Source: Chondrosia reniformis
Taxonomy: Eukaryota; Porifera; Demospongiae; Chondrillida; Chondrillidae
DNA length: 64,000 nt
Assembly (NCBI GenBank): GCA_947172415.1
Contig: OX359200.1
Location: 1,614,501-1,678,500, forward strand
Reading direction: 5' to 3'
This document shows positions 11,011 to 47,633 of this stretch, one piece after another (the stretch's first letter is position 1; every line of letters begins with the position of its first letter). The notes under the pieces were generated by a model, which saw nothing but the letters and a program-made list of their open reading frames with translations, did no database searches and had not been told where the DNA came from. The position numbers and the translations under genes are program-made.

Positions 11011-12762
11011 TTAGGAGATTACTAAGAGCAGTACACATTCTTCTGGGAGGTGCTTATTCGGCATTGCTTTTTTGACTGCAAGAGTAACGTTTTCACTTTG
11101 TGTGCAATAAACTATCTGATGGTTGTCCTTAGTAACGATTATAACTGCATGAATGGTATTATGTGATCTCAGTCCAAGTGCACGGCCTATTCCATCCAGA
11201 TTGACAGACGCAACCTATAAAATACGTATATATATATAATTACTGTATAAATACATACCAAATGTAAATAATACATAACATTTGTAAAAGACATATATAA
11301 TATTAAAATTTACCATATTAGTCCACCTGGGAAAAAGTTTGATGCCCAAAAAAGATTCAACATTTTGACTCTGGAGAGCTTCTTTTTGTGCAATGGCACC
11401 CATAATTACATATTCAGTACCATCTACTAGAAATTCATAACCTAGCATTTCTGAAACACAACAAAAGTGATTCATATTTTGAGACAAAAATAAAATTAAA
11501 CAACTATATATTTAAGTTACCTTCTCTAAATGCTTCAAATTGTGGAAGAAACTTCTTGTTACAACAGATATCAACTTGAAAAGATTTTCCTGTTTTCTGT
11601 CTCACAATATCACACAAGGTTGGATTATATCTCCTAGCCAATTTAGTCACAGGAGTACTATCCACATGTGTGACATAATCAAGAGGTCTGACCAGAAAAC
11701 CACTTTCCATATCCACTGCACACACTAGGAGCTACAGTACAAACATCATGTTCGTACACAGGCTAGGATGACATATTACAAAAACAAACCCCTTTCAGCT
11801 GTGTTCCTGGTATCTCTTGTAGGGCACCTCTATCATAAAATCTTATACCTTTAGCTAAATGTGGGTATAGCTGAAATGTATGTGCTGTAAAAGGTGAATA
11901 AAAAATAATTCACAGTTCCACTGTGTCACTGTACATGTATTATTGATGTACCTTCATAATCACATGACCAATGCAGTCTGTTTAAAGTCTTCTGTTTCTG
12001 CAGTTCTGTTTCAAGCTTATCAACCCTTTGAACAACCTTGTTCAGTTGACTAGTAACTAGAGAGAGGTGCTTGTGTACCTTATCATCCAAATGTTGTGAG
12101 AGCTTGTACCTCGTACACTCCTCTCCACAGCCCTGCTCCTTGAAGGGACAAGGGATGACTTGCAGATGACATTCAGTCAAGTGTCTGGACACTTCTCCAC
12201 GAGGTATATTGCACTCCTCGCGACATCCATTGGGACACGAAACCGGATACTTCACACACTCCACATAATGCACTCTAGTAACTTCCAGATAGGTCGCACT
12301 GTAAGTGCAGTACTTGCAAGTGTACGGTCTCTGAGAGCATTCCTTGTTCACGTGATTCTTCATGTCGCAACGTTTCGGCTTTCTTCCACATTTGTATGGA
12401 CACAAAAGAAACTCATACCTGCATTCGCCTTTTATTTCACTTGGACGAAGATGGTCGTCGATCTCCTTAACCGTTCCCTTCCAGGTACATCCGCCCTTCC
12501 GATTAGTACAGTACACCTTCAGGCTGAGGATCTTTCTCTCCTCCTTCAAGTCGCGCATCGATTGGAAATTTACCCTTCTACATAGAGGACACTGCGAGCT
12601 ACGCTCTCTTATAGACTGGATACAGCTCTCACAAAAGTTCCGTCCGCAGCATCCTGTCAAGTGAGGATTGCGAAGAACCAGTAGACAAATGGGGCACTTG
12701 AAATCTTCACTTGGCTCTTCAACGAAAGTGTAATTGTAACCACCTTTATTAGCCATTGGCAA
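11011..12762 (-). CDS. RING and TRAF-type zinc-finger protein with a novel C-terminal domain
   Basis: Five exons: 12762-11952, 11884-11790, 11731-11521, 11450-11314 and 11214-11011. Splice phases all agree and the total of 1458 nt gives 485 residues. Residues 23-61 are a C3HC4-type RING (FKCPICLLVLRNPHLTGCCG ... CPLC), expected to recruit an E2 and ligate ubiquitin. Residues about 85-220 hold TRAF-type zinc fingers rich in C/H pairs, followed by a short coiled coil (about 230-258). TRAF proteins normally end in a MATH domain that binds receptors. Here about 215 residues of different sequence follow (starting HTFQLYPHLAKGIRFYDRGA, ending CVLLLVIS), which I do not recognise. The same domain occurs in pieces at 10.4-10.8 and 14.0-14.1 kb. 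A cytosolic signalling ligase is the likely role by analogy with TRAFs; the ligand side is unknown. Confidence 0.82.
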
Positions 12763-13456: not shown

Positions 13457-15214
13457 ATGGAAGTAGTTGCCTCTTAAACGTCTCTATATACGTTTTTATA
13501 TAAGTACAGGTATTTAAATAATAGGTTATATATTAATTAGGAATAAAGAATAGGAAGAGATAACATTGAGTATAAGTATTTTTGATACCAATTATTAAAT
13601 ACAACAGTCAGTCACCTTGAGTTATTATAACCTCTATTAGAAATACCATGGTTCTATATAGATATGTGACAGCATACACTCATTTCATTATATCTTTGTA
13701 TATAGTATCATCAACAGTCAAAGAGATATTTATATATATACAAATGTAAAATGCAAGGAATTACAAAAGACAAGAAAAAGACCAATTTAATACTCCCCAG
13801 TTAGGGTCACTGACATGACAAAAGGTGGAATTCCCAGTAGCAGCTGACAGTGTCTGGTCCAGTGCAGAAGACTCATATCCTCATCCAAAGCTCTCACTAG
13901 GTTTAGTTCTCTATAGGCCTTTTTACTCTAAAGTAGATGTAGCATGTTGAAAGATGGTGTTTTAGATGATTCATGTACCATAGCAAAAATTTAAATATAA
14001 TCATTACAAATTAGTCTTGTAGTCATTGCTAAGGACATGCACCTATCAGATATTTGAATGGAAATCAAATGAAATTGTTACTTTTGCAGTCAAAGAAGGA
14101 ATGCAGAATAAGCACTTTCCAGAAAAATGTGTACTGCTATATTAGGAGTCTTGCAATAGATAATCAGAGAGTATGGCAGTACTCTCTAAGTAGGGATGGC
14201 CGAAAAAAATCACTCCCTATTCAATGTATTATCAATTAACACCTCATAAATCAACAACAATGGGATTTTCGGTTGTATTCGAGTGTTTGCAGTCGTTTTG
14301 CATGCTTTTAAACATGTTTCGATGCTCTACAACCTTCGCAAAGTGGTTAACCCGAAATAGGCTAAATTCTGAAATTCCTCATTTGTTTCCTCTATTCCTC
14401 TATTGTTTTCATAACACGATTTATGTATGGCTTCATGTTACGGATATATATAGGCCCCAGCCTTTATTTCCCTTGTGTGCAAGTTACCAAATTGTCTCTC
14501 ACCCTGTTGTTTATGTGAATGCATGCAAGTAACCAACGGTACTCCTAGCTCATACTCAAGGCAAGTCAAATCTGCGGTGATTATTGGCTGAGACCCCTTG
14601 CATGAGACTGAAATTTTTGCTGATAATAGCATGCAGATGCATCATCTTCAGTCTATACTAAGGTGTGAAAAGGTAATTGGAAGGCCATGCGTTTAACCTT
14701 ATATGATCTGTAGAGACTACTACTCTGTATGCAGCAGTTGAGAATTTCAGTGTGGCTAAAGTCTTGTAGCGTTTAATATACCTGATTGTGATTATTTTGG
14801 GAGTCATTTGCATCCGTATTATATTATATACCTCAGTGTGATTATCTTGGGAGTCACTTGCATCCGTGTATAAATTTGTAACTTATATATATATATAGAA
14901 GAGCCAGTATAATATGAGACAATAAAAGGAGGCAGCTATACTCTTTAATTGTAGATTACCTTATTATTGTAGATGATGAGACAGAACTCTTCCGGATATC
15001 CTTATAAATCAAATTGTATACGTACCCTTAAGATGCACAGTAGATTTGAGTTGAGTTTATACGTATATGTAGTTAATTGATAAACAAAAGTATAATACAT
15101 TATACTCCTTCACAGAAGGCTAATTATTATTAGATACAAAAGTACTTTCAAAAGATGAATTTGAATGATTGAGTTTGGTTGTAATAAAGACTTGAACTCT
15201 ACATGTTTGCATTC
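13457..15214. repeat. Intergenic region with SINE, paralogue fragment and dispersed repeats
   Basis: 13775-13945 is a copy of the SINE-like family described at 60060-60290. About 13995-14137 (+) is a broken copy of the C-terminal domain of the RING/TRAF-zf gene: VIAKDMHLSDI, then after a shift AVKEGMQNKHFPEKCVLL, matching AVKKAMPNKHLPEECVLL. 14185-14300 matches 62870-62985 (ggaatggccgaaaa..., caacacctcataaatcaac), a dispersed repeat. 14775-14865 is a short tandem duplication (gtgattattttgggagtca). The remainder is AT-rich with nothing recognised. Confidence 0.6.
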
Positions 15215-18200
15215 TCATAAAATTCTATTGCAGAGTACACAAAACCGATTTAAAAGATATTTGCAAAATGTTTTCTTTTCTAATGTTGACCTTAAACCTG
15301 TCATCTTTGAGGCAAGATGAACACCATATGCTTTCTCTTTCATAGTCTTCATATGCTCAGCAAAGGAACTTTCAGAAGTGTTTTGAAAACATTGCTCTTC
15401 AACCACATCCCAAGAAAACATATAAAAAGCATTTTTTTCCATAACTTGAACATCTGAGCCATTCTGTTGGTATAAACCATTTGCATCCTTCCACTTATCC
15501 AGTATTCTTGTTAATAACCCTGGACCATTATAATCCCACTTATCACCTCGATAAGTTTCAGCAAATTCCTTTAAGCAATCTCTTAGAAAGGTGTGACCTT
15601 TTTCAAACATTATCACACCATTATTCAGCCAGTTACCATCCAAGTCGTGCCAAACGAGTTTATTCAACTTCAAGTTGTCAAATGAACGCACAAGAATGAC
15701 ATCATTATCAATGTAGACACCTCCCCACTTGTACAGTACTAATAAGCGAATCAAATCTGATTCATGTGTATACCAGTATTTGCCTCCTGTAGCGTTCTTC
15801 AACTTATCACCTACAAATGTTGCCGCTGGTGTGTCTTTCACCAAGTCTTCTAGAGTGTAGGCTAGTACCTCAACATTGTATCCCACTTCAGTCAACACAT
15901 TAAATTGTCTTTGTAGCAAAGTGCTGCTGTGAATTATTACTTTAGCAAAAGGATGGTGATAGAAGATTGACTCAATTGATCGCAAATGTCTCGAAGTAAA
16001 ACCTCCTGGCCCATTGGAAGTTTTGTTATTCAAAATAGTTACAAAGTTTGAAGTGGTAAAAACCAGATGAAACAAAAGCTCTTTCTTTTCAGCTACAGAA
16101 GGGGGTGAGAAAGGAATAAGACCAAACTTTTGCGAGGCATCATAAAAGTAGCTTCTTTGACGGATCACATCCCAAGCTGTAGCTCTGATTCTCATCAGCT
16201 TACCAACATCCGGATTAGGAGGGGGAGCCTGCCAGTTAAAAGTGCTCAGCCACTCCTTGGCATCTTCTGCTGACATTGTGTACATGTCCAGTGTATGAAA
16301 AAGAGATAAAAGTCCTGTTGTACGTGGACTAGGTTTTGTGTCGCTTCCTCCTCCACCCTTCAAATTTGGGGAATTTATGAAGATCACTGGTGTTCCCATG
16401 GCAACACATGGTAATGCTGCATGTATTCTCTGTGTGATGACTATGGAGGCACGGGAATACTTTTCTATTAAGTTGTATGCAGCAGAAAAACGTTTCATAT
16501 TATCATTTTTCTCATTACCCATTAAGTAGTGTTCAATTTTAATCGCATTTTCTGTAATTTTAACTGGTAAAAGGCTTTCATAATCACTTTTGACATCGAC
16601 TAAATAAATATCTTTCCTATGATTGCTACTAATCTGGTTGGGATTCTTCAGCAGTAGAGTCAAACAACCAGAAAAATAGGCAGCATCTGGTCCCAACAAA
16701 TTTTGGAGAATATGGAGTGTTTTTATGTCACGAGTTCCAATGGGTGCTTTATTCCTAAAATATTCAAGGTTCTCTTTGATGATAGGTATAATATCACTGT
16801 CTAGGTGAATAGACAGAAGAAGAGGATCAATATTGCTTGGAGGAGGCCAGCTAGTCCTACTATCACCCCACCATGCATTAAAGAAGACAGTTACATGCTC
16901 TGTTCCCTTGGACTGATCAAGATTGTCTCTTTCAAGAAATTTGTTCACATAAGGAAGAATTTGTAGTCCAGAAAATCCTTGAATTTCATCTCCTAAGTTA
17001 GCTCCTTTATATTTAGCAACACGTTGATCATAGGTTAGCGTAGCAAAATGATGGCTGACTTTCATTGAAAAATTTAGTTCTGATACATGTAGGGTAATGA
17101 TTGTGGGACATGTATCAGTGTTCAATGAGCAGAATTTTGCAAAGGTATCCCTTATGGTCCTCTGAAAGTCAAATGCAAGAGGCCAAGTGGAATTGTTGAT
17201 ATCTCCAAACTTTGGATAATCTTTAGCATAATTTTCCATCAGTTGAGCCACAAAGGGATGGTGTGATGGAAAGTTTGATATTTCAAATTTGAAAGTTTGT
17301 TTAGTCAAGTTGCTGGTTCTAGAAGATATGCAAGCATTGTGTTGTTGAGAGGGCATTATAAAGTTCTTAACACTGAGTGTGGGATTAAAGTACAATCCGC
17401 CATGGTGCCACTGGAGAGCAAGTTGAACTACTTCTTGGAGGTGATTTTCAAATTCAGGACCTACCAAAACTTTGTTAATAGGATGATGACTAAACCATGA
17501 TTCCAAGGGTGTATCCTTCAGAATTTTAGGAATCACAAGAAACTCAGAATTAATTAGATGATTTTTCAGATCTGCAATCGCTTTGATGCACTGAGAGGTA
17601 CCGCAATACACACAAAGGTAAGTGTTTGGATTAAGAAAGTGCATGCTATTGATATTTGAGACAACCTCTTTTGGCAACTCTTTGGAATACATCCATGCTG
17701 TGGCAATTTTTTGCAGCTTTCCAAAATTTGTGGCTTTATCCTCATAGTCTACATTTTCTATTGAACTGCTATTGTGATACACTAATAGAACACTTAAGAC
17801 AAGCAAAAAGGAAATGGATATACACACTATACATTTTAAGGAATTATATTTGATGTTAAATAATTTGAGCACATGTGGCTTTGATGACTTCAAGTGATAC
17901 ATTACAAGACCCAAGAGAAACACTAGAAATCCAAAAGCCACGATCAATGAAAATGGAATAGAAAAGAAAATAATGTTAGCCAGGATTACAATAACTCTTT
18001 TTGAAAGATTGAGAAGTGAATGGCTTAGAGGACCAACACTTTGTAATACAGATATAGAAGCAAGGTTATACACAAAATGAAAGAACGAAGAAACAGCATA
18101 TTCAGTCCTAAGAGTTGCTCCAGGTAGTGTTTTGAGAAATACTACTTTATTTCCCAACATAAGTAAAACAAGAGGTAAAATGAATATACCGCCATAGAAT

Positions 18201-18820
18201 GAAATAATTGTATATTTTTGGAAAGAATTCTCTCTGAGTGTGTACAACTTCTTCAAAAAGATATTTCGTACAGCAAAAGCGATATTGGAAACAACAGCTG
18301 CACCTACACCCCAGACATTGAGTGAGCTGTCACCTACCACAAACAAGGACGCACCTAGGCTCATTAGAGTGACAGAAGACAAAGCAATATAGGTCAAATT
18401 CTCTTCTTCCTCCTTGTAGAAACACCTCATAAGAGTAAAGATAAAAATGGGTTCAAAGGATTTGATTACCTGTGTTGAACTAGAGCTAATAGTGGCATAA
18501 GCAGCATTGGTTGCTAGGTTACCAACTAAATTTGCAATGATGGCTGCCACAACTGTATATTCACTAGCCTTGGCATGTTGAGAAATAGACATACTTCTGT
18601 TTCCAGTTGTCCTCAACCATATTATGGCTACTGTCCCTCCAAACAGTAACTGAAATGCTGTCAGTTCTATCCATCTCAGGTCCACAAAAGCTGGTGTCCA
18701 ATTGGTGACTCCACTGGTAACAGGGCTTCCATCAATCATAAGTTTCTTGGATATAATGCTAACAATAGTGTTTGCAACCCACCAGAGTATCACTACAGCA
18801 AACAGTAATGTCCGCTTCAT
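15215..18820 (-). CDS. PEP/triose-phosphate translocator-like - pyruvyl transferase - glycosyltransferase fusion
   Basis: One uninterrupted frame of 1201 residues. Residues 1-310 look like a TPT/SLC35E-type nucleotide-sugar or phosphate translocator with about ten membrane segments; it has the family patterns SSSTQVIKSFEPIFIFTL and LLNLSKRVIVILANIIFF (K274-R275 in the place of the phosphate-binding Lys-Arg of plastid translocators). After a basic loop comes an extra membrane span (about 329-348), which would place the rest in the Golgi lumen; N-glycosylation sequons (NSS 350, NLT 504, NST 543) fit. Residues about 395-600 resemble a degenerate DXD glycosyltransferase. Residues 607-890 look like polysaccharide pyruvyl transferase (GANLGDEIQGFSGLQ, IGTRDIKTLHIL, FSGCLTLLL, ITQRIHAALPCVAMGTPVIF). 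Residues 955-1190 look like a GT32-type transferase with the DXD motif D1038-N-D1040 in KWGGVYIDNDV. Pyruvyl transferases use phosphoenolpyruvate, a substrate of PPT-type translocators, so transporter and enzyme appear matched. ATG at 18820 is the first in frame. Confidence 0.85.
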   Translation of the reverse strand: MKRTLLFAVVILWWVANTIVSIISKKLMIDGSPVTSGVTNWTPAFVDLRWIELTAFQLLFGGTVAIIWLRTTGNRSMSISQHAKASEYTVVAAIIANLVGNLATNAAYATISSSSTQVIKSFEPIFIFTLMRCFYKEEEENLTYIALSSVTLMSLGASLFVVGDSSLNVWGVGAAVVSNIAFAVRNIFLKKLYTLRENSFQKYTIISFYGGIFILPLVLLMLGNKVVFLKTLPGATLRTEYAVSSFFHFVYNLASISVLQSVGPLSHSLLNLSKRVIVILANIIFFSIPFSLIVAFGFLVFLLGLVMYHLKSSKPHVLKLFNIKYNSLKCIVCISISFLLVLSVLLVYHNSSSIENVDYEDKATNFGKLQKIATAWMYSKELPKEVVSNINSMHFLNPNTYLCVYCGTSQCIKAIADLKNHLINSEFLVIPKILKDTPLESWFSHHPINKVLVGPEFENHLQEVVQLALQWHHGGLYFNPTLSVKNFIMPSQQHNACISSRTSNLTKQTFKFEISNFPSHHPFVAQLMENYAKDYPKFGDINNSTWPLAFDFQRTIRDTFAKFCSLNTDTCPTIITLHVSELNFSMKVSHHFATLTYDQRVAKYKGANLGDEIQGFSGLQILPYVNKFLERDNLDQSKGTEHVTVFFNAWWGDSRTSWPPPSNIDPLLLSIHLDSDIIPIIKENLEYFRNKAPIGTRDIKTLHILQNLLGPDAAYFSGCLTLLLKNPNQISSNHRKDIYLVDVKSDYESLLPVKITENAIKIEHYLMGNEKNDNMKRFSAAYNLIEKYSRASIVITQRIHAALPCVAMGTPVIFINSPNLKGGGGSDTKPSPRTTGLLSLFHTLDMYTMSAEDAKEWLSTFNWQAPPPNPDVGKLMRIRATAWDVIRQRSYFYDASQKFGLIPFSPPSVAEKKELLFHLVFTTSNFVTILNNKTSNGPGGFTSRHLRSIESIFYHHPFAKVIIHSSTLLQRQFNVLTEVGYNVEVLAYTLEDLVKDTPAATFVGDKLKNATGGKYWYTHESDLIRLLVLYKWGGVYIDNDVILVRSFDNLKLNKLVWHDLDGNWLNNGVIMFEKGHTFLRDCLKEFAETYRGDKWDYNGPGLLTRILDKWKDANGLYQQNGSDVQVMEKNAFYMFSWDVVEEQCFQNTSESSFAEHMKTMKEKAYGVHLASKMTGLRSTLEKKTFCKYLLNRFCVLCNRIL

Positions 18821-21852: not shown

Positions 21853-22779
21853 CAGAGTATATTCTAAAGGAGAGGCTGGCTACTGTGGAATACAATTTGG
21901 TTGTGGAAGAACAAGGTGGCTTCAGGCGGGACAGAGGCTGCAGGAACCAAATTGTTTCATTGATTCTATTGGGTCAGACTAAGGTTGCATTGCAAGAAGA
22001 TGGCTTTTTGGCTGCCTTTATTGATTTCAGTATGGCCTATGATAGAGTATGCAGAGAGAAGCTGTGGGAGTGTTTGAAGGGGTAGGGTGTGAAGGGAAAG
22101 TTCCTATCATTGCTTCAGGCTTTATACCTTGGAAATTCAATGGAACTGAAGATAGGTGATAATAGGAGTGGCCACTTCCCAGTGAGTAATGGTCTCAGAC
22201 AAGGCTGTGTTTTGTCTCCCCTGTTATTTTCACTCTACATCAATGGTTTAATTATGGAATTGAAGCTGAAGAAGTATGGGGTTGTATGTGGTGGTCTACT
22301 CCTTCCTGAGTTATTGTTTGCCGATGACACTTCTCTGTTTGGTGAGGATGTTGAGGGATTGGAACAGAGTCTTATAGTGTTGGAGGAATGGTGTACAGGA
22401 TGGGGGATGAAGATTAATGCGGAGAAATCTGCTATCATTCATTTCAGGAGGAAATCATGTCCGCAATGTGACCAGCTGAGAGCCTTCCGATCCTACTGTG
22501 GTGTTCCCAGGACTCATCTTAGAACATCACTTTTTGCAGAGATAGAGGTATTATCAGTGGGCTGGGAAGCCAGAATAAGGCACATTCTTTTCTTCTGGCA
22601 TAGAATATTGGCAGACCAGCGGTATCAGCATTGTCTGATATGGAGATTGGCTTGTGCAGCTCTGACGGCTCCAGGAAGAGGTCAGTGGATGGGAAAGCTG
22701 AGAACCTGTTTGGTTGGCATGACTACAGCTGTGCTTCTCTGGCTGGGGTGTCAGGGGGATAACTCAGGACGATGGTGAG
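21853..22779 (+). pseudogene. LINE reverse transcriptase fragment
   Basis: Reads VVEEQGGFRRDRGCRNQIVS, AAFIDFSMAYDRVCREKLWE (RT motif A), a stop at 22083-22085, then NGLRQGCVLSPLLFSLYING (motif B) and LLFADDTSLFGED (motif C, the FADD catalytic box), followed by GMKINAEKSAIIHF. This is a non-LTR retrotransposon reverse transcriptase, which copies its RNA at a nicked target. The internal stop and a probable deletion after motif D show it is dead. Confidence 0.85.
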
Positions 22780-24123: not shown

Positions 24124-27100
24124 CTTTCCACAAGCTGCCACTCCATCTGATCCAGATGTGAATGAAACTGCATTAATCCAGTCATTATGACCCTACAGAC
24201 ATGCATGCAGAATATATATATATACTGCATATACATGTAGTATGATGATAATCTTTATCTTGATGAGCCTCAGCAACAGAAATTCATGATCAGTTAAATG
24301 AACCCATAGGTCTTCATCAGCAAAAATGAGGGTATTGCTACAACTGTTGTAGCGGGTCGAAACGTTGAATTTCTGTTGCTGTGGCTCATCAAGATAAAGA
24401 TTATCATATATAATATACGATACAACTACACCTTATCACTTCAAATAGTATGATATATAAGTGCATGGGCTAAACACTTAAACAAATATAATGTGCATTC
24501 AGTGAAATTTTCACTTACTCGTAGAGCACATTCTGGTATACTCTTCTGAGATAGAGGAAGTGTATACAGTGCAAGGATTCTGTCATATCCTCCAGCAGCC
24601 AGTATTCTTCCTTTATACACAAGTTGAAAAGGGTAAAAAATATATGCAAACTTCATATATCAATTAATGATTATATGCATGGCTGAGCCTTTTAAATGTA
24701 ATTACATATGAATAAAATTATTCTCTTAATGGTCTCGGAGGGTGATTTTTAATTTCTAAATGTTATTCCTACATGTTTTGTTTTAACTTACCATCGGGTG
24801 AGTACTGACAGCAGCTAACACATCCTTCATGTCCAGAGAGTACATGAGGACCCTTTACACGGTATCCTCCAGTTGATACATCATAGACATGTATTCTCCT
24901 GTCCCACCCACCAGTGCTCAGGCAACGCCCATCAGGCGAGAAACAACAAGAAGATACCACATGGGTGTGACCTCTGCAGTTTAAACCAAAATGAGATGGA
25001 CTCACAAGATGAGAAGGACTCACAAGATGAGATGGACTCACAAGATGAGAAGGACTCACAAGATGAGAAGGATTCACAAGATGAGAAGGACTCACAAGAT
25101 GAGATGGACTCACAAGATGAGAAGGACTCACAAGATGAGAAGGACTCACAAGATGAGAAGGACTCACAAGATGAGATGGACTCACAAGATGAGATGGACT
25201 CACAAGATGAGATGGACTCACAAGATGAGAAGGACTCACAAGATGAGAAGGACTCACAAGATGAGAAGGACTCACAAGATGAGATGGACTCACAAGATGA
25301 GATGGACTCACAAGATGAGAAGGACTCACAAGATGAGAAGGACTCACAAGATGAGATGGACTCACAAGATGAGAAGGACTCACAAGATGAGAAGGACTCA
25401 CAAGATGAGATGGACTCACAAGATGAGATGGACTCACAAGATGAGATGGACTCACAAGATGAGATGGACTCACAAGATGAGATGGACTCACAAGATGAGA
25501 TGGACTCACAAGATGAGAAGGACTCACAAGATGAGATGGACTCACAAGATGAGAAGGACTCACAAGATGAGAAGGACTCACAAGATGAGATGGACTCACA
25601 AGATGAGAAGGACTCACAAGATGAGATGGACTCACAAGATGAGAAGGACTCACAAGATGAGAAGGACTCACAAGATGAGAAGGACTCACAAGATGAGAAG
25701 GACTCACAAGATGAGAAGGACTCACAAGATGAGAAGGACTCACAAGATGAGAAGGACTCACAAGATGAGATGGACTCACAAGATGAGATGGACTCACAAG
25801 ATGAGATGGACTCACAAGATGAGAAGGACTCACAAGATGAGAAGGACTCACAAGATGAAATGGACTCACAAGACGAGAAGGACTCACAAGATGAGAAGGA
25901 CTCACAAGATGAGAAGGACTCACAAGATGAGATGGACTCACAAGATGAGATGGACTCACAAGATGAGAAGGACTCACAAGATGAGATGAGATGGACTCAC
26001 AAGATGAGAAGGACTCACAAGATGAGAAGGACTCACAAGATGAGAAGGACTCACAAAAGACCAAGAAGAAGAAGACAAAGACTCCTTAGGGTCATTGATA
26101 AAGGGTGGCACAGCTGTCTGGCCCAGTGGAGTAGAAGAAAAAAGACTATCCTCATCCAAAACTCTCACCATGCAGGTTTAGTTCCCATATAGGCCTTTTC
26201 TCTAGAATACGTAGATATAGCATGTTGAAAAACACACAGTTATCTACTGATATTATAAGCCCTTACAAATGCACAATGACTAAAAATCTACAACATGACT
26301 GCCTAAGTAAAGGTATGATCTAGGTATTGGAGACTCAAATTGATTGCTCTCACTTTAAAGTGACTAGTGGCTTATTCGTTCTAATGTCCCATATCCTGGC
26401 TGTCTTGTCCATAGACGCTGAGCAGAGCCCTTTCTCATCTGGGGAGAGACTGACACACGTGATGGCTTTAGAGTGACCTGCAGTGGGTGTGCATGGGAAC
26501 ATAGATATGTATACGAATAACTGTGATTAGAACTAATTATGCATCGATATTATTATACAAAAATTACAATAATCGATAAATTATAAAATGGCTGCCAGAG
26601 GAAGGGGTAGAGGAGGCCCTTCCATCAACCCTCCTCCAAGTCCAGGCATACAACCTAGTGCTTCTCACGGAAGTATGACTGCGCCTATTCCAGGTCCGAA
26701 ACAAGAGGCTGATAGGACGCTGTCTGACATTAAAGAGGTGGCCAAATACCTGCATTCTCTGAACCATGGTAATCTATCAAAGTACGGTCCGATTTTCAGT
26801 GAAATGGTAATTAATTTCATCAAAAAGGACCCAGATAAACGATTAAGGGAGGTGGCGTCACTTTTAGTCGAGACGATTACGAAATCGAAGGATTTTGCTC
26901 CCTTGGGAGGAAAGGTATGTGGAGGTATTTTAAATCAAGAGAGTGACAAGGAAATGCGAGGGAAACTCAGAAATGAGATTCTAAGCCAATGTAAAATGCA
27001 GTTTAAACAAAAGAATGGCTTAAGAGCGAAATCTATTGAGCAGTGGCTGGCAATCTTTGCGTTTATAGGAGCATTGTATCAGCGAATACTCATAAATGGT

Positions 27101-28479
27101 CAACACTTGTCTGCTTTGGGAACAGCAATTTTGGAAGGCATTTCCTTCACCTTTTCACTTTCAGACACTGATGATGATGAGATAGAATGCGTTTGTGCTT
27201 TATTTAAGGAGATAGGCCCAGTTATTGAAGGAGACGAAAAACTAAAAGGAAAATGTAAAGAAGTGCTTCACATGTTACGTACAAGAGTGATTTCACGTAA
27301 AAGTACTGAAAGGACGAGATGTCTTATATTAGAACTTTTAGAGTTCAGAGCAATGGGTTACAAGGACAGCGGGAAGGAGCTGGATGACTTTTATCCTGAT
27401 GCCATGATGGATGCTATAGCCAATGATGACCTGCACTTGTAATGATTCTATGTGGAGGATGTATATGTACGTACGTATATCTTTTATATCCATTGTTTTT
27501 CTCATATATTTCAAGTTTCTGACCTTTTAATTCTCTTATTTTATCCGCACATCTGAGGTCCCAAAGTGATAAACATGAACTATCCAACCCTGTTACTGCT
27601 AATGCATGCTCCTCTGAGTGACAGCAGCTGAGAATCAGGCTTTGTTCCTTTCTACATAACTACCCCAAGTAGCAATCAAAATATGAATGTAAATTAGATC
27701 TATATAACTCAGTGCATGGCAGAGCACTGGTGGTCATAACCAGCTGTCCTGGGTTTGATTCCCAGCAATTGTTTCTTTTATGTTTTTCCATCTTCATGAT
27801 GCTTGAAGGTCAACGATTCTTGTGGTTTAATTATCACCTCAAGTATTCATATAATCCAAGAGTGTGTGTATATGTGTGTTTAGTATATGTATACACATGC
27901 ATGTTACATAAAGTCATGCAAGACATTTCCTTTATTAATTGTGTACATGCATGATTCCCGGGACAGCTATATGGTTATGACCAACAATGTTATGCATAAA
28001 ATTTTGAAGGATATATCTATACTTAGACAGAACTTACCATGCAGAAGGAGCACATATATACAGTATATATAACTGGCTTACAAGTTGCCTTCCTGTGTTG
28101 AGATCCCAGAATGCCAACTGTCTGTCCCATGATACACTTAAAAGTTTTTCACTAGGTGAAGAGTGATTCTTGTAGGCCAGTGCATATATTTATAGTTGCA
28201 TGCAGTGTAACGCACCTCTGCCTTGGAGGAGCAGTGCAAGCTATATCAGTGACTTTATCAGTGTGCCCTTCTAATGTTTTAATGCACTCTTGGCTGGGAA
28301 ATTTCTAGAAATGATATTTCAAGAATGATATTGCAATTGTTGTCTAATTAGTATCTGTACATTGAAATACTTACCCAGATTTTCATGGAGCAGTCGTCCG
28401 AAGCGGTAACTAGGCGCCCATTCTTCAACCATTGACAGCTGTTTACACTGCTGGGATGTACCTGTATGCTAAAAGACAT
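24124..28479 (-). CDS. WDR88: WD40-repeat protein, WDR88-like
   Basis: Eight exons with agreeing phases: 28479-28375, 28304-28216, 28151-28082, 27647-27524, 26477-26354, 24973-24792, 24610-24519 and 24192-24124. They encode 285 residues; the terminal exon with the stop was not found. The start MSFSIQVHPSSVNSCQW runs straight into the first blade. WD40 blades follow one another: DDCSMKIW, SVSWDRQLAFWDL, GLDSSCLSLWDLR, SASMDKTARIWDIR, GGWDRRIHVYDVS, GGYDRILALYTL. The phrases GHEGCVSCCQYSPDG and GHNDWINAV are close to those of vertebrate WDR88 as I remember it. Function in animals is little known; WD40 propellers act as scaffolds. The gene contains another gene in intron 4 and a 1-kb minisatellite in intron 5, and shares a 93-bp divergent promoter with codanin-1. 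Confidence 0.8.
24241..24410. mobile_element. Foldback element in WDR88-like intron
   Basis: Inverted repeat of about 40-bp arms (gataatctttatcttgatga / tcatcaagataaagattatc), between exons 7 and 8. The middle includes 'gggtcgaaacgttgaatttc', a hammerhead-like GAAAC block, and the arms resemble the Penelope-like terminal region near 19360-19440. It is probably a Penelope-derived terminal inverted pair. Confidence 0.6.
24990..26060. repeat. 18-bp minisatellite in WDR88-like intron 5
   Basis: About sixty copies of an 18-bp unit (gactcacaagatgagaag or ...gagatg). Because the unit is a multiple of three, several frames are open by chance (a DSQDEK/DSQDEM repeat on plus, LVSPSH on minus), but both intron borders are well supported, so this is intronic. 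Read in the sense of the host gene, each unit contains GTGAGT, a perfect splice-donor hexamer. The array stops only about 16 bp before the 3-prime splice site of exon 6. Confidence 0.93.
26050..26245 (+). mobile_element. SINE-like repeat copy
   Basis: Copy of the dispersed family at 60060-60290: 'gggtcattgataaagggtgg', 'ctgtctggcccagtggag', 'aggtttagttcccatatagg'. Immediately adjoins the 18-bp array. Confidence 0.7.
26588..27442 (+). CDS. MIF4G-domain protein (MIF4GD/PAIP1/CTIF-like), intronless and nested
   Basis: A single-exon gene of 284 residues lying within intron 4 of the WDR88-like gene on the opposite strand. The N-terminus is Arg/Gly- and Pro-rich (RGRGRGG); from about residue 60 the protein has the helical repeat style of the MIF4G fold (YGPIFSEMVINFIKKDP, ASLLVETITKSKDFAPLGGK, WLAIFAFIGALYQRILI, LGTAILEGISF, CLILELLEFRAMGY). 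MIF4G modules bind eIF4A, eIF3 or stem-loop binding protein and regulate translation. The length fits MIF4GD or the core of PAIP1 or CTIF, and I cannot separate them. The single exon suggests a retrocopy that has stayed open, or an ancestral intronless gene. Confidence 0.75.
   Translation: MAARGRGRGGPSINPPPSPGIQPSASHGSMTAPIPGPKQEADRTLSDIKEVAKYLHSLNHGNLSKYGPIFSEMVINFIKKDPDKRLREVASLLVETITKSKDFAPLGGKVCGGILNQESDKEMRGKLRNEILSQCKMQFKQKNGLRAKSIEQWLAIFAFIGALYQRILINGQHLSALGTAILEGISFTFSLSDTDDDEIECVCALFKEIGPVIEGDEKLKGKCKEVLHMLRTRVISRKSTERTRCLILELLEFRAMGYKDSGKELDDFYPDAMMDAIANDDLHL
27700..27860 (+). mobile_element. tRNA-derived SINE
   Basis: The head resembles a tRNA: 'aactcagtgcatggcagagc' as A-box region, 'ctggtggtcataaccag' as anticodon-like stem-loop and 'gggtttgattcccag' as B box with T-stem. 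The anticodon loop lacks the T at position 33, so it is not a working tRNA. Related tails lie at 43725-43830, 39195-39310 and 30210-30300. Located in intron 3 of the WDR88-like gene. Confidence 0.65.
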
Positions 28480-31500: not shown

Positions 31501-34500
31501 TCCTAGCCGTCCCTGTCCTAGCCGTCCCTGTCCTAGCCGTCCCTGTCCTAGCCGTCCCTGTCCTAGCCGTCCCTGTCCTAGCCGTCCCTGCCCTAGCTGT
31601 ACCTGTCCTAGCCGTCCCTGTCCTAGCCGTCCCTGCCCTAGCCGTCCCTGTCCTAGCCGTCCCTGTCCTAGCCGTCCCTCTCCTAGCCGTCCCTGCCCTA
31701 GCTGTACCTGTCCTAGCTGTCCCTACCATCTCCTGTATCTGTGTGTTAGATGGATGAGAGCACTTCACCAAAGCAGTCATCTTTTAGAGTACTATTCAAT
31801 GCAAAGACAGACAGTAAACAGAATTTTTCTGATGATAAAACTTTTCATTCCTTTAAGAAGCAGAGGTCAGTACAATGTATTCACAATACGTATCTGATAT
31901 ATTAAATGTGTTTGAGACCTTTGATTTCATTGGATGGTTTCTGTCCAATCAAAGTTATAATAAGATTAAATTTCTAGTGTTTATTTGTTATAACTTTGTT
32001 TTTATAGTTAATGGTGTCATAATTAAGATTTGTGTATAAGCATCTTAGCTTTTCATATATACGTACTCTCACTCGGTCATAACAGACCATAAGTTGAAAC
32101 TCACTTTTATGTTGTATACAATTGTTAAGCCGTATTCAAATAGAAGAATTAGAAGCAACAGGTGGATGCAAGGGTATAATAGTTACAACACAGTAACACA
32201 TTTACTACATCAGGGTCATCTTTCGACTTTGGAACGTCTAGAGACTGAAGAAGACCCCCAGGGTCGAAACGTCTGGCAGAAAGAAGAACCAAAAAACTGC
32301 GTCTCTAGACGCTCCCAAAGTCGAAAGATGACCCTTTCCAAAGATACGTTCAACGCAGTTAGAAGAAATCCTTATTCTATTACATTTACTACACTTACAC
32401 ATGTGTATTGAACCAAAGTATTACTCATTGTTCTATGTCAGAGGAGAAGAAGGTATATGGATGGCTTGGTAGACTAAGACTGGAGTGTTCAGAGAGTCCT
32501 AATGTGTTTGTATTCTGTAGAGATGGTTTTTATGAATTTTATCGGTTGTGGAGAAGTCACTCTAATGATTTAGAGTGGTTTATGGACAGTAAAGAGATGG
32601 TTGAAAAGATAAGGTAATTCTATGCTCTAGCTTGTTTTAATGTGTGATCCACAGTCAATTCTTATGCACATGTATGTGTATTAATAATTGAATTGATAAT
32701 CAAGCCACAAGTTATTACGACCATTATGAAGAGGGAAAAGCATGAAATAAGTAATTGCTGGGGATTGACCCCATGGTTGTATACCCCCAGGGGTCATTCA
32801 TTTGCTCCACTGACAGTTATTGGTTAACTTCCATTTTGTGTAGGTACATAGTATCACTATCAACTGACTGTCTCACTCGAGAACATTTCGCTATGTTGTT
32901 TCAACAGCAACTTCTTGAAGTGAGACTCTTTAACTTGAGCACTGTATATTTATAAAGTATAAAGAGAAAGAGATGGAAATGTATGTATAGACAGGAAATT
33001 TGTTTTGGTGGCTGGACTGTTGACGTTCAGAAAACTACGTAACTACGTACCTATTTATGAACCACCAAACCATGCACCTAACCATGCCTGATAGTACGTA
33101 TTTATGAGAAATCAGGCAAAGTAGATCCACCAATTTTTGCAAACAGTTGAAAGTTTAACCATCCACCCACTTTTAGCTCCTCTTTACATACAGTAATAGT
33201 TAAATAGAGGTTGGCCATGTTAGGCAGTAATATGGTCAAGTTACTTGCGTACATTAAGACAACATGAAACAGCTTTGGGATAGTAATAAGGTTTGATAAC
33301 ATTGCTTGACTTTAAGAGAGTAACTTAGAGATCTACTTACTGTATATAGCTTACTTGGAAATATTTGTAGTAGAAGCTATTAAACTTTGTCAGTACTACG
33401 TACTAGCTATGGGAGTGGTGAGTTTTTCTCTTAAATGTTACCTGTAGAGTTGTAGGAGTGGCCCAGCAGCGTCACTGGATGGTAGTTTATATGAGAAGTT
33501 TAAACAAGAAGATCCACGCAAGCTGAGCAAACTAAAGGAACGTTTTACAGTTCCCTTTCAGCGGCAGACTAGTATACAGCAAAATCTGCAAATTAGCACA
33601 AGTGAAGAGTTTTTTAATGAGTTTGTCATTTTAGCTGACAGGTTGGTATAGCAATAAACTGACCTAAATACATTCCAGTTAAGTTACACTGCAACCTTTT
33701 TATTGTTGTAGCTACTCATTTAATGAGCATCTAAAGATCTGTCTTGTGAGAGAAATAGTAAAGGTTTGTATATATGGTATATATGGCATACTGTGTGATT
33801 GGGTATATGTCTGGTCGAAAAGGAAGTAGGAGGTAGCAGTCCGTGGTACCCGAGACTATTTGAGGGCCTGTTCTCCTTGAGAAGCATTGTTTGTGTTAGC
33901 TAAAACCAACGCACAATCTATTCAAATAATAAGGGAGGGTAATATCCTAGGCATTTGCTGTTGTGGGTTAAAAAAACTTTAAATACCCGGGACACGGGAC
34001 ACAGTTTATTTTCCGGGACTGCCCTGAGCAATCCGGGACAGTTGGCAACTATAGGCTAATCATATGTGAGATACAGACACTGCTCTCTATCCCATGCAGT
34101 TGACTAAAGATGGCCTCCTCTCCACTGCTCTACTGGAATATGAGGCTGTCCACAGAGACCTGCTAATACTAGCTAGACTCCTCGGCATTGTGGTATACCA
34201 GCCGTACAAGGGGCTTCATGGTAACCTCCCTCAACACAGTAATGTGAATTATGTAAGTGTGATACCAGCATCTCAACACAACAATGTGAACTACGTATGT
34301 GAGTAGCAATGTGAACTATGTACGTGTCAGGGTTTCATTAAGCTGGTTATGTAACTGTTGTTCATGCCTTGGCTTCAGCTTAATTGATGCACCAGAAGCA
34401 TTTTAAACAGCTTAAAAATCAAGGAGCATGTGCCATTGCCCAAAACCCTCTTTTATTGTGCATATTTCCACTGCCCCTGCAAACATTTTAAAAGTCAATT

Positions 34501-37500
34501 TTGCCCCCCTTCCAAAAATTTCTGGATGAAACCCTGAGTTTGATACTGACTTGAGTTGTCTCATGTGATTAGGATAACAGGAAATAGAGATGAATCTGGA
34601 TTGTATATCCATACTATATGTCTACATACTATCCATACTATATGTCTACATACTATCCATGCTATATGTCTACATACTATCCATACTATATGTCTACATA
34701 CTATCCATACTATATGTCTACGTACTATCCATACTATATGTCTACATACTATCCATACTATATGTCTACATACTATCCATACTATATGTCTACATACTAT
34801 CCATACTATATGTCTACATACTATCCATACTATATGTCTACATACTATCCATACTATATGTCTACATACTATCCATACTATATGTCTACATACTATCCAT
34901 ACTATATGTCTACATACTATCCATATTATATGTCTACATACTATCCATACTATATGTCTACATACTATCCATACTATATGTCTACATACTATCCATACTA
35001 TATGTCTACATGCTATCCATGCTATATGTCTACATACTATCCATACTATATGTCTACATACTATCCATACTATATGTCTACATACTATCCATACTATATG
35101 TCTACATACTATCCATACTATATGTCTACATGCTATCCATACTATATGTCTACATGCTATCCATATTTTTTTCTTCTAAGCTCTTTTATCCACACTATAC
35201 ATACATTTTGTCTCTCTACTCCTTCTCTCCTCTCCATTCTAAACCTCTCCATCCCTCGCTTCTCCATCCTAATCCTCTCCATCTCTCCCCCCTCCATCCC
35301 CCTCCATCCATCTCCTCTCCATCTCTCCCCCCTCCATCCATCTCCTCTCCATCTCTCCCCCCTCCATCCATCTCCTCTCCATCTCTCCCCCCTCCATCCA
35401 TCTCCTCTCCATCTCTCCCCCCTCCATCCATCTCCTCTCCATCTCTCCCCCCTCCATCCCCCTCCATCCATCTCCTCTCCATCTCTCCCCCCTCCATCCA
35501 TCTCCTCTCCATCTCTCCCCCCTCCATCCATCTCCTCTCCATCTCTCCCCCCTCCATCCTTGTCTCAATTATCTGTCATCTGTCTCTTCAGATTTTGACA
35601 CATTCTGTTGATATCCTGTCATGCCTGAGGGATGCACTAAGGGCATGCCATCTTATTCTAACTGTCCCATGGATAGTGGAGTATTTAGGGAAATTACGGT
35701 TACCACAGCAACAATGGAGAAATGAATCCCTTGGACTCCTCAGCACTCTCTTTAATATTCTAAAGTGAGACAATATTTATGTCTATATCTCTGTCTAGAT
35801 GTTCCTACACTTAACCATTTGGTGTATGTCAGTGTACCATTAAACCTTAATTGTGATTAGTTAGTAGAATTGACTAGATTAACTGATCCACTACACAGGA
35901 GAGTCATTACATCTTCCATGTTGTTCTTTTTGTGTAATGTAGAGTTGTTTCCCAGCTTCAAGAACTTCCTTTCAGAAACAGGTACTTGATTCAGCTATCC
36001 TTGGCGCATCTTCTAGAGGTGCGTACACTCTATAGTGCTTATTCTGTTAGAATAACCTCTATGAATCTAATTATCTTGGGCCTACTTCCTATAAAGGTAC
36101 ACGGGATATGGAGTCTTTATAACGAATACTGTGCTCAAGATCAAGGGGTAGACCCTATTGTTAAAGAGTGGGTGGATACACTTAAATTGGATCAAGAAAA
36201 TTTGGTATGATTATAATAATTGTCAATCATTGAATGCACAGCTGCAATTGACCTCAAATCTTCTCCTATCTGGTCATGTCCCCTTAGAACATATTAATAT
36301 TGATTAAGACCAGTTGATGTCAGCCACCTCCGTAGTTGTCCGAATAGAAACCCGCCCCTCTGTTTCGTTCCAGTTATTTTGACCCAGTCTCTATTTGAGC
36401 CTGGCTTTTATTAATATATGCCCATCTCCCTAGCAGACATCTACTTAGTGTTTTTTGCAGTGCACTCGCAGCCTTTACTTGAGGGAGACATCGTAGAACA
36501 ATCCCTTTGGATCACTACTGGTTAGGCATCACGATTGATTCACACTTCAATCCGGTGTATTTATTCAAGAGACCCCACCTCTATTTTGACCCGACCTCTA
36601 TTTGAGACCCCACCTCTATTTGAGACCCCACCTCTATTTGAGACCCACCTCTATTTGAGACCCCACCTCTATTTGAGAGCCCACCTCTATTTGAGAGCCC
36701 ACCTCTATTTGAGACCCACCTCTATTTGAGACCCACCTCTATTTGAGACCCACCTCTATTTGAGACCCACCTCTATTTGAGACCCCACCTCTATTTGAGA
36801 CCCACTTCTATTTGAGACCCCACCTCTATTTGAGACCCCACCTCTATTTGAGACCCACCTCTATTTGAGACCCACCTCTATTTGAGACCCCACCTCTATT
36901 TGAGACCCACTTCTATTTGAGACCCACCTCTAAGCTGCTAAATGAGACCCAGCTTCTATTTAAGTATAGCGCAGCCCTGGCTGTACATGGGGAATACCCG
37001 GTATGTAGTGAATGGGTTATAATTGAATGTAGTTGGTTGCCATTGCCTCCATCAGCTTCACAGTACTTACAGTAATGTTGTCATTCTATTTTGACATTTA
37101 ATAGGATACAAAGGAGTTTGTCAGGCCAAAGACAATACTGTGTACTTGTCCAACCTTAGGTACATACATATTTGTATGTATATCAATACCTATCTTTATA
37201 CAGTATCGGGAATTGAATGCAAGGGTTATATATTGCGAATTATCCAAATTACAGGTATAAGTGAACACATTCTGGTTAAAAGAGTGCGAGATGAAGCTAT
37301 TAGTATATGGAATTACTGAGTTGTCGAATAAATTTGCGTCAAAAGATTGTTTGTCAAAAGATTATGGATGTGGGCAAAATTTGCAATCTCACATTCTTTA
37401 GATACATGTATTCAATTCCCAGTATACGTATATGGTACAGTAGAGAACCTCACTTATCCGATTCAGAAGGGGCCAGACCATTGCCAGATATGTGATTCAC

Positions 37501-45008: not shown

Positions 45009-47633
45009 ATGGAAACTTGCAATTGTGATCTGTCGGCGAGAAAATTGGCCGAAATCCTCGATCGCGTCTCATCAGACGGCTCGGAGTCTTCCTGGGATCG
45101 CCTGTTCTGTTTCCCTGCCCGCTGCCTACGAGTGCCAGATAGAGGCGGCCATCGCAGAAGCTTGGCTTCACACACCAACCAGCTTATCAAAGAGGAAGCG
45201 GACCCTACCTTCGTCCAGTCTGCCCCTAACAGACGAACAGGTAAATTCACTCGCGATCCAGTAGACACTTTAGCAGGGAGAGTTTCTGCTAAACTAGAGG
45301 AAGGAGATTTTAAAGGGGCAGTTCGTCTTGCCTCTTCTGAAGACAGTATTGCAATCCCTAGCAGTGAAACGCTTGCCACCCTTCGGGAAAAGCATCCTCT
45401 GCCCCACCCGGATTCTGCTATTCCACTAGTGTCCACCGAGGATCAACCAATGCCAGTCCAGGTATCAGAGGACGAGGTAGCAAGAGCCATCTGCTCTTTC
45501 CCTTGTGGTTCCGCTGGTGGCCCAGATGCCCTGCGTCCGCAACACCTGAAGGACATGATAAGTAAGTCAGCTCTGGGGGGTGGGCAGATGTTGCTTCGAT
45601 CTGTCACCTTTTTTGTGAATTGTGTGCTGAGAGGTGAAACTGCTGTCCCGGCTCGGGCCTCCTTCTTTGGAGCCACCCTGATTGCTTTGAACAAAAAGGG
45701 GGGAGGTTTGAGACCAATCGCCGTTGGGTGCACATTGCGTCGCCTTGTGGCAAAGTGCGCAGGTGCCTGCGTGAAGGAAGCCATGGGAGCGCTCCTGGCA
45801 CCTCACCAATTGGGATTTGGTGTACCCTTGGGAGCGGAGGCCGCTGTTCATGCCAGCCGCATCTTCCTCTACAACCTGCAGCCTGGGCACCTCATCTTGA
45901 AGCTTGACTTCAGGAATGCTTTTAACTGCCTTCGTCGAGATAAGATGATTGCTGCTGTGAAGCAGCTGGCACCTGAGTTGCTCCCTTTGGTCACCTGTGC
46001 CTACAGTGCTCCTTCCTTCCTTTTCTTTGGGGAAGACATTATACCATCCTCAGAAGGTGTGCAACAGGGTGACCCCCTCGGCCCATTGCTCTTCTGCCTT
46101 GCTATCCATGACTTGGTGCAACAGTTGCAAAGCGAGTTCAATGTTTTCTTCTTAGATGATGGCACACTTGGTGGCAGCTTGGAGGAGGTCCTTGAGGATT
46201 TCAGCATGGTGGAACGAATGGCAGGGGAGCTAGGTCTCCAACTCAATCGAGACAAGTCAGAAGTCATATGTGATGACAGCACCACAAGGTCAGCCATGCT
46301 TCGTGCTGTCCCAGGTCCCAGTGTGACAGAGCGAGACCATGCCACTTTGCTTGGGTCTCCCATTGGCACTGCCAATGGCATTCAAGACACCATCCTAAAG
46401 AGAACAAAGTCACTTCAGACCCTGGGGAGCAGGCTACAGCTTTTACGTGCTCACGATGCCTTCTGTCTTTTACGCAATGCCCTGGCCATCCCCAAAGTGC
46501 TGTACATCCTGCGCTCCTCACCATGCTTCCTCGTCCCGGCCCTGCATGATTTTGACTCCCTCCTTAGATCTTTGCTGGGCACCATCCTAAATGTCAACCT
46601 CTCTGACTCTGCATGGACCCAAGCATCTCTCCCAGTCCGAGCTGGTGGGCTGGGAGTTCGTAGCACAACCCAGCTTGCACCTTCTGCTTATTTAGCATCG
46701 GCTGCGGGTTGTGCACAGCTGGTCCAGCAGATCCTGCCCCAAAGACTGCTGAACTCCCCATTCCCAGCAGCCACAGAGGCATTGGTAGTCTGGCAACAGG
46801 GCCACAAAGAACCAGCTCCATGTGCCCCTGACTCTTCTCATCAGAAGGCTTGGGATGGCCCCGTGGTGACAGCAGCAGCAGAAGCCCTTGTGAGGGAATC
46901 TCCTGATGAGTTAGCTCAAGCTCGTCTGCTGGCATCTCAGAGGAAGGAGTCGGGTGAATGGCTACATGCGCCTCCAATGTCGGCTATTGGTCTCCGAATG
47001 GATGATGAGGTGCTTCGAGTAGCAGTGGGGCTCCGCCTAGGGGTTGCCCTGTGCAGACCCCACAAATGTCATCAGTGTGGCGCTGAAGTGGACCATTTGG
47101 GTTTGCACGGCCTTAGCTGCAGGAGGAGTCAGGGCCGGCACCCAAGACATGCAGCAGTGAATGACCTTCTCAAACGGTCACTGGCCTCAGCAAAGATCCC
47201 CTCTCTCCTGGAGCCCACAGGCATCGCACGCTCTGATGGAAGAAGGCCGGATGGGATCTCAGTGATGCCCTGGAGGAACGGACGGACACTGGTATGGGAT
47301 GCCACTTGCCCTGATACATTCGCCCCTTCCCATGTAGCCCTCGCTGCAAGGGAAGCAGGGCTGGTGGCCAGCCAAGCAGAGAAGGCAAAAACCCAGAAGT
47401 ACGCCCTTCTTGGTACCAGCCACCATTTCGTTCCATTTGCAATCGAAACATCAGGGGTTTTTGGGCCAGAGGCCATTACTTTCATCAAGGAGCTGGGTCA
47501 CAGGATCAGGGCTGAGACCGGGGAGCCACGCTCCTTGCAGTTCCTGATGCAAGGTATTGCGGTGGCTGTCCAGCGGGGCAATGCGGCCGCAGTGAGGGGC
47601 ACTTCTCCCCCAACAGACAATGTTTTTATTTGA
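45009..47633 (+). mobile_element. Intact ORF of a non-LTR retrotransposon with restriction-like endonuclease
   Basis: An uninterrupted 874-residue frame. Residues 215-430 are a reverse transcriptase: ATLIALNKKGGGLRPIAVG, LILKLDFRNAF (motif A, D300), EGVQQGDPLGPLLF (motif B), FFLDDGTL (motif C, D383-D384) and LGLQLNRDKSEV. Residues 687-704 form a C-x2-C-x9-H-x3-C zinc knuckle. Then RRPDG (P747-D748) and LVWDAT (D764) followed by KTQKY give the PD...D/E...K order of the restriction-like endonuclease found at the C-terminus of R2/NeSL/CRE-type elements, which nick the target and prime cDNA synthesis. G+C is far above that of flanking DNA. Both flanks are AT-rich within a few bases of the ORF, so UTRs are short or missing; the 5-prime end may be truncated. 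All key residues are present, so the ORF looks recently active. Confidence 0.82.

Follow-up and report, generated by a model that had tools for sequence, protein, structure and literature searches.

A sponge gene that joins a TPT-family translocator to a pyruvyltransferase and two glycosyltransferase-like domains, a candidate for glycan pyruvylation in animals

Ketal pyruvylation of glycans with imported phosphoenolpyruvate (PEP) is described in the fission yeast Golgi, where the available text on the pyruvyltransferase Pvg1 has it depending on PEP delivered by transporters (PMC4872226), namely Pet1 and Pet2 (PMC4872226, PMC6801904). In animals, pyruvylated sugars have been reported since the early 1990s from a sponge aggregation proteoglycan and from sea hare glycolipids (PMC4872226, PMC6994554), and the accessible parts of two reviews name no animal enzyme that makes them (PMC6801904, PMC6994554). 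Here we describe a gene of the sponge Chondrosia reniformis, on the minus strand at positions 15215 to 18820 of a 64,000-nucleotide stretch of contig OX359200.1 (hereafter the window), that encodes a TPT-family translocator, a pyruvyltransferase, and two glycosyltransferase-like domains in one polypeptide. The best reading of its sequence, and one that we consider probable, is that of a protein of the endomembrane system that brings in PEP and, on the luminal side, attaches pyruvate to glycans as a ketal.

The gene is a single ATG-to-stop frame of 1201 codons plus the stop, without a break, as expected from the original prediction of one 3.6-kb exon; all features below lie on the same minus strand and are given in window coordinates. 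It opens with a TPT-family translocator domain (residues 8-308, 17897..18799; Pfam PF03151, E 2.2e-29, 103 bits against a cut-off of 30) that covers positions 5-290 of the 291-position profile. An eleventh membrane span (residues 330-348, 17777..17833) is indicated after this domain by a hydropathy peak with a basic loop before it, and by the full-length model of a relative, P0018, which has ten long helical segments at its N terminus and an eleventh, helix 304-328. This span is expected to place the remaining protein in the lumen. There follow a glycosyltransferase-fold (GT-A) domain without a DXD motif (residues 370-588, 17057..17713), which lacks that motif in all 79 family members; a pyruvyltransferase domain (residues 601-870, 16211..17020), recognized by Pfam PF04230, PS_pyruv_trans (E 1e-11 over residues 685-816, 45.7 bits against a cut-off of 25.3), and by its bacterial relatives; and a C-terminal glycosyltransferase domain (residues 909-1200, 15221..16096). 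In the last of these, Gly_transf_sug (residues 944-1053, E 6.9e-16) and Gb3_synth (residues 1072-1199, E 3.1e-23) both match above their curated cut-offs, and the DXD motif is D1038-N-D1040 (15701..15709); 41 of 69 tree rows have both aspartates. The original prediction had named a TPT/SLC35E-like membrane domain at residues 1-310, an additional span, a pyruvyl transferase within residues 607-890, and a DXD glycosyltransferase. Each of these was borne out; residues 370-588, which it left unnamed, are the GT-A-like domain without DXD.

Several trivial origins for this architecture were weighed and rejected. Against a frame that is broken or open by chance stand the uninterrupted frame itself, the probability that a frame this long stays open, which given the base composition of the window is about 2e-36, and the ratio of nonsynonymous to synonymous substitution rates (dN/dS). 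Calculated across the entire frame for each of the six pairs that the four genome copies form, this ratio is 0.40-0.57, a sign of purifying selection. Two genes read through as one were rejected because relatives have the same build, and an oddity confined to C. reniformis because that build is found in the proteins of other animals. The architecture of the fused gene is as good as certain, and translation of all its parts as one protein is supported by the shared build and the whole-frame dN/dS.

A first protein search produced 58 proteins, 50 of which have both TPT and PS_pyruv_trans among their precomputed domains. After a second search the family alignment comprised 79 relatives, 69 of them of at least 1077 residues; of the 84 proteins collected, five (P0080-P0084) are not part of it, and the structure alignments A2 and A3 held 68 and 72 rows. 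Named members come from Patiria miniata (three), Asterias rubens, Xenia sp., and Halichondria panicea; NCBI labels them uncharacterized, and the legible UniRef names refer to a sugar phosphate transporter domain. The same fusion was found in another sponge, H. panicea; the original prediction had suggested a search of other sponge genomes. The original prediction knew of no described protein with this architecture. In the literature that we searched, mostly without subscription journals, none of the papers listed for this fusion, or for a pathway of this kind in animals, describes it. The architecture is not unique, as it recurs in starfish, a soft coral, and another sponge. The animal range is a lower bound from incomplete searches: the profile search missed members that the first search had found, P0039 of Halichondria among them, so that further members may have escaped it and nothing can be concluded about their absence from other phyla.

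By sequence, the top solved relative of the translocator domain is 5y78, the triose-phosphate/phosphate translocator of Galdieria (E 7.6e-15). Among solved structures, profile comparison favors 5y78 (E 3.3e-30) over SLC35B1 (E 1.3e-5), as does Foldseek (E 2.5e-10 versus 9.8e-8), with nucleotide-sugar transporters also matching by fold. The available portion of the Galdieria study has phosphate coordinated by K204, K362, and R363 (PMC9010763). In the alignment to 5y78, the counterparts of these residues are all kept in the window copy, as K120 (18461..18463) and as the pair K274-R275 (17996..18001). The equivalence, of a lysine in transmembrane helix 4 (TM4) and a lysine-arginine pair in TM9, uses what we take to be the residue numbering of 5y78. 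Also kept are the equivalents of T188 and Y339, which presumably have roles in the Galdieria translocator, while a histidine that we place at H185 of 5y78 is replaced by asparagine. The overall pattern, LTHA..N..KR, appears to resemble that of plant TPT and PPT carriers. When only the TPT part was used as the query, the protein search yielded four proteins, none carrying a name. No match to UAA, Nuc_sug_transp, or SLC35F, which we take to be the other nucleotide-sugar transporter families of Pfam, appears for the window protein up to E 1, although this negative carries little weight. Judged by its sequence, the domain is of the same superfamily as NCBIfam tpt and not of the NCBI-defined subfamily.

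The pyruvyltransferase domain carries the residues expected of a PEP site. As given in the accessible portion of a study of CsaB, R148 and H308 are important in PEP binding and R306 is modelled near PEP; activity is abolished by R148K, R148Q, H308A, and H308R, and turnover is lowered about eightfold by K328R (PMC10435577). Equivalences to CsaB and Pvg1 were assigned by motif: R697 (16730..16732), in a conserved G-C-R-D motif, corresponds to the PEP-binding residues CsaB R148 and Pvg1 R217, and R798 and H800 (16421..16429), in an R-I-H motif, correspond to CsaB R306/H308 and Pvg1 R337/H339 (PMC10435577). R833 (16322..16324), in a conserved R-x-x-G that is also present in bacterial relatives, may be the counterpart of CsaB K328 and Pvg1 K361; the residue is arginine in 60 of the 73 members that have one there. 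Pvg1 (5ax7) is among the Foldseek fold matches of the luminal model (E 2.0e-3, probability 1.00, 334 columns, with the aligned range not specified), and the VIA-align structure rows scarcely cover the pyruvyltransferase part. Among the domains compared, this one has the highest mean conservation (0.60).

Single-domain bacterial PS_pyruv_trans relatives are 25-32% identical to the sponge protein in the best segment within residues 564-870, and the profile match between the animal domain and these relatives has an E of 1.9e-63. Motifs that most of them share with the sponge domain are NxGDxIQS, WPP, PIGCRD, FSGCLTL, and RIHCALPCVAMGTPV. In the genome collection, such relatives occupy six loci among 23 stretches that match one of two peptide patterns, from Verrucomicrobia, Planctomycetales ZRK34 (twice), Flavobacteriaceae, Lentisphaerae, and Proteobacteria; because the patterns favor close motif matches, this spread is a lower bound. 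Three bacterial frames, L016, L017, and L019, have no TPT or glycosyltransferase (GT) domain by Pfam. The motifs of the sponge domain are shared by L017 and L018 of Planctomycetales bacterium ZRK34, and L017 is neighbored by GT2, sulfotransferase, and GT8 genes. Our reading of these sequences is that the pyruvyltransferase domain is probably of bacterial origin. In a viral search, one contig among 16 stretches encodes a single-domain relative; this is L022, a 16.3-kb IMG/VR viral contig whose pyruvyltransferase is of the same subfamily.

We propose that the protein, probably in the Golgi, provides itself with the donor that it consumes. Its TPT domain, at the N terminus, would swap luminal phosphate for cytosolic PEP, and the eleventh span would put the remaining domains in the lumen. 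There, the pyruvyltransferase domain would move pyruvate from PEP to a terminal sugar as a ketal (galactose, by analogy), and the phosphate freed by this transfer would be returned by the translocator. The C-terminal DXD domain would extend glycans of the same kind by one sugar, with the DXD-less middle domain as a non-catalytic or acceptor-binding partner. We infer the PEP substrate, the direction of transport, the compartment, the order of reactions, the identity of the sugars, and any role in cell adhesion.

The searched genome (117,379,552 bases in 15 contigs) contains four PS_pyruv_trans and four Gb3_synth matches, all in four fused genes at 1.46-1.63 Mb of one contig (C12); the scan used six frames, ignored introns, and kept the best candidates only (4 and 5), so that diverged or split genes may exist besides. 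Four of the eight TPT matches are these fused genes, and the rest belong to genes on C6 and C14 that, from their motifs, we take to be SLC35E1-like and SLC35C1-like, respectively. The other fused copies, L013, L014, and L015, are 87.8-89.9% identical to the window protein, and given the whole-frame dN/dS the copies are not plain pseudogenes. All four align over nearly exactly the coding region (15211-18820 in the window). Flanking similarity is short, at most about 130 bases directly beside the gene (L014 versus L015), and is nearly absent for the window copy. The copies look as if they were made from transcripts or as cassettes.

Changes at the two presumed PEP-handling sites tend to occur together. 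We scored the translocator as intact when K120, K274, and R275 are unchanged, and the pyruvyltransferase when R697, R798, and H800 are. The window copy keeps all examined phosphate-site, PEP-site, and DXD residues, and L013, L014, and L015 all carry K274E in the phosphate site and R697K in the PEP site with the DXD retained; L014 and L015 additionally have D611N. R697K is the same kind of change as the inactive R148K of CsaB (PMC10435577, available part). Of the 305 columns with at least 75% conservation among relatives, just three, K202, K274, and R697, are ones where every one of these paralogues departs from a consensus that the window copy retains, and two of these three fall among the seven site residues (hypergeometric P 0.0013). 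Family-wide, both sites are intact in 47 of 73 rows and both lost in 11 (Fisher P 1.9e-4). The DXD behaves differently, with a reversed association with the pyruvyltransferase sites (P 0.02) and no significant one with the translocator sites (P 0.096). Among the 69 rows scored for all three (10 of the 79, P0027, P0053, P0055-P0058, P0075, and P0077-P0079, were left out), 24 keep everything, 21 have lost the DXD alone, 10 have lost the translocator and pyruvyltransferase sites and kept the DXD, 14 are other mixtures, and none has lost all three. In P0058, a dropped fragment, the translocator and pyruvyltransferase sites are changed and no DXD is aligned.

A second fusion resembles the first in order. 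P0080, of 853 residues, matches TPT with 36.3 bits and PS_pyruv_trans with 34 bits, each above its cut-off, and one or two hydrophobic stretches separate the two domains. It thus shares the TPT-span-PS_pyruv_trans order of the sponge protein but differs in the type of pyruvyltransferase, which bears SMHG...GIPA motifs, and in having no GT domain match. Because the motifs are distinct and profile comparison of its pyruvyltransferase with that of the sponge family gave no match, P0080 appears to have brought these two functions together independently, although the evidence is thin, a single gene model on one 5.8-kb contig. The joint changes and P0080 both lend support to the suggestion, made in the original prediction, that imported PEP may feed pyruvylation.

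A number of results weigh against this reading. The match to the NCBIfam tpt subfamily, although at E 4.3e-27, scores 95.4 bits against a cut-off of 317.9. The K-R pair, absent from the SLC35C1-like gene, is present in the SLC35E1-like gene of the same genome and so is no proof of PEP transport. With the conservation threshold raised to at least 80%, K274 (59 of 74) drops from the conserved set, with R697 remaining; the three paralogues may share a common ancestor, in which case each site may have changed only once; and P0002 and P0003, which are two of these paralogues, are counted in the family-wide test as well. In that test, five of the 73 rows have only the translocator sites intact and 10 only the pyruvyltransferase sites. 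Relatedness was considered on a quick tree with long-branch warnings, from which 10 of the 79 rows (P0027, P0034, P0055-P0058, P0075, and P0077-P0079) were left out. Phylogenetically independent pairs gave about four with and one against (median P 0.375) and, taken the other way round, 3.9 versus 0.4 (median P 0.125), neither significant. By branch, four of 10 translocator-site losses coincide with a pyruvyltransferase-site loss (permutation P 0.007) when R833 is counted, a second definition added beside the three-residue one, but without R833 the same-branch count is three (P 0.07), and with nested losses counted P is 0.06-0.09; the permutation test is sensitive to such definitions. Finally, the literature searched contains no experiment on any family member. 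The joint loss of both sites is thus strong in raw counts and, with relatedness allowed for, weak to moderate.

The same data bear on what else the protein could do. TPT is a Pfam family that includes nucleotide-sugar carriers, such carriers also match this domain by fold, and a DXD glycosyltransferase would require a nucleotide-sugar donor; the domain might therefore import a nucleotide sugar for the C-terminal glycosyltransferase and leave the pyruvyltransferase to obtain PEP via another carrier. We consider this unlikely, as the phosphate translocator 5y78 outscores SLC35B1 and nucleotide-sugar transporters among solved structures, none of the 10 translocator-site losses falls on the branch of a DXD loss, the four that are nested with one do not exceed the chance mean of 4.8, and the 21 of 69 rows with a changed DXD just described keep the other two sites. 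Somewhat less probable still is that the TPT part is now a mere membrane anchor or scaffold, with PEP coming from elsewhere. All three phosphate-site residues are kept in 52 of 73 rows, and conservation is similar to that of the enzyme domains: 19 columns of the TPT domain are at least 95% conserved, compared with 22 for the pyruvyltransferase and 14 for the C-terminal GT; the 10 rows with only the pyruvyltransferase sites intact would fit an anchor, as would P0075, a member without a TPT match that may, however, be a truncated gene model.

We regard it as similarly unlikely that the pyruvyltransferase-like domain performs another reaction or none, in a protein that is mainly a glycosyltransferase. 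The Pfam score is moderate, the PEP-site residues are changed in 14 of the 69 tree rows, and pyruvyltransferase sequences are, in the accessible text of one review, so diverse that predictions need care (PMC6801904). Against this, R697, R798, and H800 are kept in the other 55 rows, the domain is on average the most conserved of those compared, and the DXD is changed more often, in 28 of 69.

In the remainder of the window, the open frames at 45009-47633 and 22089-22778 contain reverse transcriptase domains and probably belong to retroelements, and frames at 11926-12762, 24769-26064, 26588-27442, and 61278-62456 match RING/TRAF zinc finger, WD40, MIF4G, and M20 peptidase domains. Among the nine neighboring frames scanned, none matches a glycan enzyme. 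A strong guanine-cytosine skew of -0.425 at 34001-36000 lies over a frame with a weak GLTT-repeat match below cut-off.

The family is a concrete candidate for animal glycan pyruvylation, and because it is present in starfish and a soft coral that can be studied, the question is testable. Beyond this we tentatively hold a broader view, to which, as a whole, we give somewhat less than an even chance. In it, non-vertebrate animals from sponges to starfish would have a dedicated, single-polypeptide, PEP-fuelled system for acidic sugar caps, in which a pyruvyltransferase related to bacterial ones was combined with a phosphate translocator and with two domains resembling glycosyltransferases, of which one is conserved and, without being catalytic, reads the acceptor; gene copies would since have split the tasks, some keeping only PEP import and pyruvylation, and others only the glycosyltransferase. 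If this were true, the pyruvate cap would contribute the negative charge that elsewhere comes from sialic acid, and the self-binding, pyruvylated glycans on the aggregation factors of sponges may be products of this family.

The component domains are of known kinds; the fusion is a new combination of them, and a literature search directed at transporter-glycosyltransferase fusions found no paper. The Galdieria translocator 5y78 is a stand-alone plastid carrier, whereas the sponge domain is fused and predicted to be in the Golgi. At the C terminus, the sponge protein has the Gly_transf_sug and Gb3_synth matches with a DXD found in Gb3 synthase-like glycosyltransferases, presumably family GT32 of CAZy. 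Those enzymes are normally type II single-span proteins; here, by contrast, the domain is the last part of a polytopic fusion that includes a second, DXD-less copy. The sequence similarity of Pvg1 to the sponge domain is very weak (5ax7, E 0.22), although the R/R/H residues correspond by motif, and Pvg1 is described, in the text available, as a type II membrane protein, unlike the sponge fusion (PMC4872226). Whereas in fission yeast the transporter and the transferase are separate genes, in the sponge they are one, an indication that a single protein can both carry a donor and transfer from it.

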